Of a DNA stretch of 64,000 nt, positions 1,008 to 64,000 are shown piece after piece. The translations under genes were made by a program, and so were the position numbers. Position 1 is the stretch's first letter. The number at the start of each line of letters is the position of its first letter. The notes beneath the pieces are model-generated. The model searched no databases. It was not told the origin of the DNA and worked only from the letters and a program-made list of their open reading frames with translations. The DNA is from Bacteroidales bacterium (GTDB taxonomy: Bacteria; Bacteroidota; Bacteroidia; Bacteroidales; B18-G4): positions 1 to 64,000 of the forward strand of contig JAGYMZ010000005.1 of the NCBI GenBank assembly GCA_018400295.1. The letters are read 5' to 3'.

Positions 1008-1089
1008 GGACAGGTGCCGGATTGTAAAACCTCACTACTTGCTTTATACCGGGAGTTAAGGAGCCCGGTAACCGGCCCTGTCCTTTTTT
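1008..1089 (+). ncRNA. Candidate structured small RNA ending in a terminator
   Basis: The two ends pair: GGACAGG (1008-1014) with CCTGTCC (1077-1083), continued by GCCGG (1016-1020) with CCGGC (1072-1076), one T bulged. This 12-bp helix encloses a 26-nt single-stranded stretch and a 7-bp hairpin, TACCGGG (1047-1053) with CCCGGTA (1064-1070), with a purine-rich loop. Six T residues follow directly (1084-1089). The whole reads as an independent small RNA or a terminated riboswitch-like leader. No good TAnnTTTG box sits just upstream, and it matches no RNA family I recognise. Confidence 0.4.
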
Positions 1090-1168
1090 CTGCCATCACA
1101 TCCAGGCCGGGTGCAATTTTGTCATGTCATTTGCCCGGTTACCCCGCTTTCCCGGAACCCTGTGCCAA

Positions 1169-63209: not shown

Positions 63210-63255
63210 TGAAAACTGCGGAAAGTGTTGTAAAATTAATGGTTTTGGGTTCAAG

Positions 63256-63283
63256 TTATTAACAAAAAACCGGTTTTATTAAC
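63256..63283. repeat. Phased TTATTAAC repeats around a perfect palindrome
   Basis: TTATTAAC occurs at 63256-63263 and 63276-63283, 20 bp apart start to start (about two helical turns), and again at 63366-63373. Between the first two lies the perfect 12-bp palindrome AAAACCGGTTTT (63266-63277). They sit just upstream of the HU promoter and may bind a regulator. None of these alone would be rare in AT-rich DNA. Confidence 0.5.
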
Positions 63284-63311
63284 ATTTACAGGGGTTTCAT
63301 GGCTTTTTCCC

Positions 63312-63341
63312 TTGACTTTTCTGCCAAAACCACTATATTTG
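63312..63341 (+). promoter_or_regulatory. Full promoter of the HU-like gene
   Basis: TTG (63312-63314), a 19-bp spacer, TATATTTG (63334-63341); the ATG is 50 bp downstream. The -7 box lies within an inverted repeat (63327-63350). Confidence 0.85.
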
Positions 63342-63350
63342 TAGTGGTTT
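63327..63350. promoter_or_regulatory. Inverted repeat across the HU -7 box, candidate operator
   Basis: AAACCACTA (63327-63335) and TAGTGGTTT (63342-63350) are perfect 9-bp reverse complements with a 6-bp centre TATTTG. The repeat sits exactly over the -7 element, a position where a bound dimer would block RNA polymerase. Confidence 0.55.
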
Positions 63351-63390
63351 ACGAAATTCATTGATTTATTAACCAAAAATTTAGAGAGCT

Positions 63391-63663
63391 ATGAATAAAG
63401 CAGAATTAATTGATGCAATGGCAGCTGACACTGGAATGACCAAAGCCGATGCCAAAAGGGCCCTTGAATCATTCGTTGATACAACGAGCAAAGCTCTGAA
63501 AAAGGGTGACAGGGTTGCGTTGGTAGGATTCGGATCATTCTCAACTGCAACAAGAGCATCACGTAAGGGACGGAACCCTCAGACGGGTGCAGAAATCAAG
63601 ATCCCTGCAAAAAAAGTTGTAAAATTCAAACCAGGCAACGAACTCGCAGGCACTGTAAAATAG
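63391..63663 (+). CDS. HU-family DNA-binding protein
   Basis: A standard 90-residue HU: MNKAELIDAMA, the two helices with DAKRALESFVDT, and the flexible arm around TRASRKGRNPQTGAEIKIPAKKVVKFKPG. It bends and compacts DNA as a dimer. The promoter region is unusually rich in repeats (63256-63350), which may reflect autoregulation. A terminator follows the stop codon by 12 bp. Confidence 0.96.
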   Translation: MNKAELIDAMAADTGMTKADAKRALESFVDTTSKALKKGDRVALVGFGSFSTATRASRKGRNPQTGAEIKIPAKKVVKFKPGNELAGTVK

Positions 63664-63674
63664 GGAAAAAAATA

Positions 63675-63702
63675 AAAACCCTCCAATCCGGAGGGTTTTT
63701 TT
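63675..63702 (+). terminator. Intrinsic terminator of the HU gene
   Basis: CCCTCC (63679-63684) pairs with GGAGGG (63690-63695), flanked by A-run and T-run (seven T), so it may work in both directions for the convergent genes. Confidence 0.85.
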
Positions 63703-64000
63703 ATGTCTTTTTTAACAGGAATCGGTATGGCAACCGGGCATCTTCTTCTGCATAGTCAATGCCTATCCGGGGGCTTATCTGTATCTTATCTTCCCGGACT
63801 TTCCTCCCGCCATCTTCCAGCCAGATCGTATCCCCAGAAAGGTCCAGTCCGCTATGCCTCCAGTGAATTCCCAGTATCCTGCATACTTTCCCCGGACCGT
63901 TGGCAAAGGCTTTATCTATCAAGGATTTTCCGGATCGCTTTAACATCAGGTCCTTTCCGCATGTGGGGTTAATTCCCCGCACCAGGACAGCGTGAGGGAT
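63701..64000 (-). CDS. 3-methyladenine DNA glycosylase (AAG/MPG family), C-terminal part
   Basis: The gene runs off the right edge of the window; only its last 99 codons are seen. The readable protein (PHAVLVRGINP, then LDLSGDTIWLED and ISPRIGIDYAEEDARLPYRF) matches the C-terminal part of the Aag/MPG alkyladenine glycosylase family, which removes alkylated bases in base-excision repair. The frame is open to the window end; the start is outside. Confidence 0.88.
   Translation of the reverse strand: MPHAVLVRGINPTCGKDLMLKRSGKSLIDKAFANGPGKVCRILGIHWRHSGLDLSGDTIWLEDGGRKVREDKIQISPRIGIDYAEEDARLPYRFLLKKT

Follow-up and report, generated by a model that had tools for sequence, protein, structure and literature searches.

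A conserved structured RNA of the Bacteroidales with a near-invariant 12-nt loop segment, a candidate trans-acting small RNA

The window analysed here is a stretch of 64,000 nucleotides from a Bacteroidales bacterium (GCA_018400295.1, contig JAGYMZ010000005.1, positions 1 to 64,000). Near its beginning lies the gene of a 232-aa protein (156-854) that carries the motif CDQWCERC close to its start and matches no Pfam family; a 27% identical homologue of this protein adjoins the RNA described below in the genome G002. The gene is followed by a gap (855-1263) and by a Trx-Grx gene with its start codon at 1264. When ORFs of at least 100 aa are counted, this gap is one of three of at least 250 bases, the others being 1849-2296, which contains a 95-aa Cpn10 gene, and 63210-64000; the initial annotation had mistaken it for the only sizeable gap of the window. 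The distance given there to the redox gene was right, as the Trx-Grx start codon is found 175 nt past position 1089. The features within the gap are the following:

1008..1089, + strand: candidate small RNA gene, predicted transcript of ~80 nt with both ends predicted; fold z -3.88; 14 related members
1008..1020, + strand: 5' arm of P1, GGACAGG (1008-1014), bulged U (1015) and GCCGG (1016-1020)
1031..1042, + strand: conserved core CTCACTACTTGC in the loop, consensus CTC[A/T][C/T]T[A/G]CTTG[C/A]
1047..1070, + strand: P2 hairpin of 7 bp, UACCGGG (1047-1053) with CCCGGUA (1064-1070), loop AGUUAAGGAG
1072..1083, + strand: 3' arm of P1, CCGGC (1072-1076) and CCUGUCC (1077-1083, CCTGTCC in the DNA)
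1084..1089, + strand: T6 tract, seen in the sequence and forming with P1 an intrinsic-terminator-like end

The fold described earlier for 1008-1089, a 12-bp helix that closes a domain with a 7-bp hairpin and is followed by six T residues, was confirmed by the sequence and by folding. P1 consists of 12 bp with a single bulge and encloses a loop region of 51 nt (1021-1071), in which the loop of P2, AGUUAAGGAG, is composed of purines at eight of ten positions. The minimum free energy (MFE) of 1006-1090 was -33.4 kcal/mol, and none of 200 dinucleotide shuffles was equally stable (mean -21.96, sd 2.95; native z -3.88). In the MFE structure of the window, the last four letters of the core pair with an upstream GUAA. 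A simple terminator scan, which takes loops of 3-8 only, did not list the P1 hairpin. A second terminator-like hairpin is found on the + strand at 1169-1191, between the RNA and Trx-Grx (CACTC-CCGGT-GAGTG followed by C and T7).

Relatives were collected by DNA and protein searches, which gave two, and by covariance models, which gave twelve more. The DNA search of 99 related genomes hit 13 genomes at E<=0.1 and returned, besides the window, one clear homologue, in G002 of the same genus (76% identity, E 1.8e-7); a second homologue of the same genus, in G001, was spotted upstream of its Trx-Grx gene. The three RNAs have AACCTCACTRCTTGC in common and differ in their stems. A covariance model built from them (R1) matched 15 of 295 genomes of the order at E<=1 and contributed four new members that carry the same core, G054 (E 9.9e-10), G209, G040 and G153 (E 0.99). 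The model R2, built from six sequences, matched 23 of 393 order genomes at E<=0.1 and added G322, G247, G275 and G222. R3, built from eleven, added G384, G179 and G343 from the order sample and G124 from a family search at E 0.036, the last on the strength of its stem, its core and a homologous upstream gene. The window, which is itself among the sequences used to build R3, matched this model with E 6.8e-17. At E<=0.01, R3 matched 16 genomes, of which 14 were kept and two (G177 and G342) were dropped.

In total, 15 members from eight families (f1, f33, f47, f68, f74, f76, f103 and f117) and eight genera were obtained, all within the order Bacteroidales. In the large model searches, about 9-15 first-look candidates were scored per genome from up to several hundred or more, and the distribution counts are therefore lower bounds; this holds for the 14 of 393 order genomes judged true. 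Presence was patchy even inside families, with one of 12 genomes in f74 and two of six in f117. All 16 genomes matching at E<=0.01 had one match each among the part of the first-look candidates that was scored. In a class sample, R2 matched seven of 295 genomes at E<=0.1 and only the window's own genome was kept; in a phylum sample, the single match of R3 among 395 genomes at E<=0.01 was again the window's own.

Several matches were discarded. The locus L046 has a core with one mismatch, a stem and a T-run, but it lies antisense inside an ORF of 340 aa; its core-like CTCTCCGCTTGC (1501-1562, G177) is located in a stem followed by T6 and may be a member in antisense or a match by chance. L044, AT-rich and placed between two genes, has one core mismatch and no T-run. 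L059, L070 and L074 were dropped by eye as coding or lacking a stem, L043 and L056 as repeats, and the remaining weak model matches likewise by eye.

The test set beforehand, whether the pairing is conserved in homologues, was run, and the pairing was found to be conserved. Two-sided changes occurred in 11 of the 17 pairs in an alignment of six members and in 14 of 17 with eleven members. With fifteen members the count was again 14 of 17, and 98.5% of 201 cells were paired. At most one of 500 shuffles attained any of five covariation measures. When the partner was shifted by 1-3 columns, the pairing fell to 35-51%. These alignments were made by models and fitted to the structure and are therefore biased towards it. 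In the 15-member alignment, all seven outer P1 pairs and four of six P2 pairs showed two-sided changes. RNAalifold, applied to the same alignment, gave ten P1 pairs, all ten with two-sided changes; in its consensus the core is unpaired and P2 is absent.

As a model-free control, the z value of the duplex formed by 45 nt before and 65 nt after the core was calculated from 200 mononucleotide-shuffled versions of the flanks. The members reached z values from -1.2 to -6.4, with 14 of 15 at -1.9 or lower and L028 as the exception (-1.2). For comparison, 12 further core-like sites were taken, ten of which came from these genomes; 11 of the 12 had values of -1.1 or higher, and the exception was the antisense site within an ORF at L046 (-2.7). 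Although the arms differ strongly from family to family, they still pair, and in the 15-member alignment the spacing between P1 and core changes irrespective of reading frame. A covarying, non-coding structure, as belongs to the trans-acting sRNA class, was found. The flagged RNA is real and conserved, and its folded shape is kept.

P2 was present in seven of the 15 members (f1, f47, f103 and f117) with differing letters, for example GATTTGG/CCAAATC in L045 and GATTCGG/CCGAATC in L069. In the eight members without it, the core sits in a large loop. P1 and the core hence define the family and P2 is optional. In single folds of seven members, the core was partly paired in the MFE structure of five (window, L022, L008, L028 and L029) and free only in L026 and L038, and its pairing was not common between families. 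Pairing of the core with GCGGGGAGU(A)AGG, seen in the MFE structures of L022 and L008, was considered as a two-state switch and dropped because this hairpin involves the P2 letters of a single genus and is impossible in the eight members lacking P2. Inspection by eye revealed no pseudoknot between the core and the loop of P2.

The core CTCWYTRCTTGM is identical at eight of 12 positions in all 15 members; the full composition is C15 T15 C15 A9/T6 C14/T1 T15 A9/G6 C15 T15 T15 G15 C14/A1. Since the search models were built on the core, its constancy is partly a condition of detection; G124 and G343 were recovered despite one departure each. P1 is needed as a stem and not for its letters, while the core is needed for its letters, which gives the core the look of a recognition segment. 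The segment ACUUGCA is complementary to UGCAAGU, a sequence that we take to lie near the 5' end of 16S rRNA, where the alternating A/G of the core would presumably face a U.

Rfam 15 bore out the initial description of a terminated structured RNA with no recognised family, as no match overlapped it. At the gathering score, the whole window gave no matches. A permissive search of 850-1300 (E<=10) and a search of the 14 related loci (E<=1) returned nothing overlapping the RNA; an snR56 match at 926-1001 (E 2.3) in the permissive search was taken as chance. The 6S models of Rfam 15 matched neither in the window nor in 850-1300 nor in the 14 related loci. A literature search found no description of the RNA in a comparison that excludes the candidate structured RNAs of human microbiomes, thousands of which were reportedly presented in one study. 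A pattern for the P2-bearing type matched six genome contigs, two of which are probably the known members G054 and G209; the other four were labelled as other phyla and taken as chance. The same pattern gave no matches in viral contigs, and plasmids and phages likewise contained no match. Most likely, the RNA is a new family, absent from Rfam 15, of an already known kind, namely trans-acting small RNAs.

Signals for expression were searched around the members. An exact TAnnTTTG, which we take to be the Bacteroidetes -7 box, was located 3-7 nt upstream of P1 in four of 15 members (L029, L038, L042 and L045), a number attained by none of 2000 shuffles (mean 0.057). With one mismatch allowed, the count stayed at four and 17 of 2000 shuffles attained it. 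The exact box was absent at this distance from the other 11 members, including the window; for these, other promoters or processing are possible. Inspected by eye, ten of 15 members have five or more T residues in a row where P1 ends, and the run is weak in L026, L029, L040, L045 and L069.

The core was also used to look for targets. Searching the 15 genomes for a perfect 13-nt complement (core plus A) gave 22 matches, of which 12 were the RNA itself; a reversed control pattern gave two. This search is blind to seeds of 7-9 nt. Of the ten matches outside the RNA, four are complementary deep in long ORFs, 565 nt or more past the start. None of the ten is a sense match at 50 nt or less from a long-ORF start, and no recurring gene was seen by eye. 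When the loop was paired with the start regions of 53 ORFs of the window, 293 of 300 shuffled loops paired as well or better. At two of the ten sites outside the RNA (L088 and L092), the core sequence codes for signal-peptide-like starts (MKKIITILTICLFSLSLLAS and MKKFRYTLLFAFAFSLLAC), which may be chance or may hint at mimicry of such mRNAs by the RNA.

The genes around the RNA change from family to family. Downstream, Trx-Grx, a PEMT/ICMT-type methyltransferase, a 279-aa protein without Pfam match, an exonuclease, an AAA-domain protein or a convergent gene was found, and hence no constant class of downstream gene as expected of a riboswitch or cis leader. In f33, the RNA follows an Ala_racemase_N (YggS-like) or PEPCK gene, with an AAA-domain gene ~400 nt further on (names by Pfam for L029 and L041 and by eye for the other loci). 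In f68 and f76, it is located between an E2 gene (64% identical) and an exonuclease gene (63%); as the gap is shared, the arms differ and the core is kept, this is good evidence for one RNA by descent. It lies behind homologous genes of 34% identity in f117 and, in the window genome (G000) and G002, behind the homologous Cys-containing protein without Pfam family (27% identity). In G001 (L022) and G275 (L042), the upstream gene is divergent, and the RNA there cannot be the 3' end of that gene.

The tie to the downstream redox gene that the initial annotation had implied was not supported. Trx-Grx is near the RNA in three of 15 genomes (G000, G001 and G275) and has a promoter-like element of its own. 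The element, TGGCAY-N5-TTGA, precedes the start of Trx-Grx by 37-42 nt in six of seven loci, whether or not the RNA is nearby, with a pattern picked after viewing these same sequences and an approximate start codon position in L099. Its background frequency is 0.0027 per 100 nt, and it was found within 130 nt before the core in none of the 15 RNAs. The copy in the window, TGGCACATAAATTGA (1223-1237), lies 41 nt before the Trx-Grx start, between RNA and gene. We presume that it is a sigma54-like -24/-12 element in which the -12 GC of the consensus reads GA. It is likely a conserved separate promoter of Trx-Grx.

Further elements were observed in this region. A block AATTTTGTCA occurs 3' of the RNA in three genomes of the same genus (window 1115-1124, L022 1229-1238 and L008) and 93 nt before Trx-Grx in L042 (2154-2163). 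It was rejected as part of the RNA, from which it lies hundreds of bases away in L042, and may serve as a regulator site for the Trx-Grx region. In G001, an GGGCTGGG-rich repeat and an inverted copy are found between RNA and Trx-Grx (L022 1244-1385). G006, of the same family and with no copy of the small RNA detected, has an RNase P class A RNA gene (RF00010) close to its Trx-Grx and Cpn10-like genes (L023 1347-1777).

The initial annotation had proposed either a small RNA or a terminating riboswitch. The small RNA is favoured, and the riboswitch is not supported, as the neighbours differ between loci. That the element is a terminating riboswitch or leader controlling Trx-Grx is very unlikely: in G000 and G001 the gene does come after the RNA in the same orientation, and in G275 it follows at a distance of 675 nt, but it was not found at E<=1e-20 in ten of the 15 RNA-bearing genomes, some of them incomplete (G002, with its RNA near a contig end, is 83% complete), it is on a different contig in two of the five that have it (G209 and G179), and in the window the TGGCAY-N5-TTGA element intervenes. 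The RNA might also be merely the terminator and 3' UTR of the upstream gene with a conserved sequence in its loop, as the two have the same orientation in 13 of 15 loci and the stop codon of the gene comes close before the RNA in several (~10 nt in L026 and ~20 nt in L069). We consider this unlikely, because the upstream genes vary between families and are divergent in two of 15 loci, the conserved 12-nt loop would be superfluous for a plain terminator and promoter boxes precede four of 15 members. A chance hairpin or artefact is hardly credible: stable hairpins with T-runs are common and weak model matches inside ORFs such as L046 did occur, but covariation, the conservation of the core and the model-free control all speak against it.

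A family of autonomous small RNAs of ~80 nt, present in part of the Bacteroidales, is probably what these loci encode, with a core that would act in trans, most likely by pairing as a seed with several mRNAs. The transcript, whose separate synthesis is predicted for the window genome, would begin at the base of P1 or close to it and end in the U-run after this stem, so that one stem would be both body and terminator. P1 would enclose a loop of ~30-50 nt, P2 included where present, which carries the 12-nt core CUCWYURCUUGM. The core would be the working part, and P1 would provide stability and termination. As the neighbours change and the RNA stays, action in trans is most likely. Its main rival with respect to mechanism is a protein partner: the core would be recognised by an RNA-binding protein (e.g. 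with an RRM, of the RbpA/B/C type) that the RNA titrates or guides. This is possible, if doubtful. The near letter-perfect core across eight families and the failure to find a common complementary target favour it, whereas each RNA has a single core and titrating RNAs usually repeat the protein site. RbpB of B. thetaiotaomicron is described as preferring single-stranded regions of noncoding RNAs (PMC11697453), which also fits a protein partner.

Pairing with mRNAs would be the mechanism of first choice by analogy to GibS and FopS of the same order. The RNA resembles intrinsic terminators in its GC-rich stem followed by a U-run. It differs from ordinary ones, which have short loops, by its 51-nt loop region in the window, its conserved core and a second hairpin in seven of 15 members. 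The characterised trans-acting RNAs of Bacteroidetes come, according to the accounts of these systems, from gut Bacteroides, and GibS and FopS are described there as base pairing with mRNAs (PMC11697453, PMC7366714). FopS of Bacteroides thetaiotaomicron, likewise from the Bacteroidales and of similar size (~65-70 nt), has members with an intrinsic terminator end, sigma-ABfr promoters and a conserved single-stranded seed (PMC11697453, PMC7366714). As described, the seed of FopS and GibS is a free 5' stretch before the terminator and FopS has 12-15 copies per Bacteroides genome (PMC11697453, PMC7366714), whereas the conserved core here is inside the P1 terminator stem and one copy per genome was found. 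The new RNA is set apart from both by description and not letter by letter; CUUGC, CTTGC and GCAAG are absent from the main text on FopS, where the letters of the R1 seed stand in a figure. As a candidate RNA of the phylum from comparative genomics, it is like Bacteroidales-1, Bacteroides-1, Flavo-1 and 6S-flavo (PMC2864571). The motifs of Weinberg et al. (2010; PMC2864571) that carry Rfam numbers gave no match here; GUCCY-hairpin and Bacteroides-2, which have none in the table given there, are outside this comparison.

The candidate small RNA is a family defined by covariation and found in the order beyond gut Bacteroides. It points to terminator hairpins as possible carriers of a conserved recognition loop, and the 12-nt core CUCWYURCUUGM offers a handle for testing an RNA or a protein partner. 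More speculatively, and with considerable doubt, it could be a global regulator in part of the Bacteroidales that carries a near-invariant recognition segment in its own terminator hairpin and has a partner constant across families. This partner, an RNA or an RNA-binding protein that is itself conserved, would, if it exists, account for the survival of the core while the stems around it were replaced.
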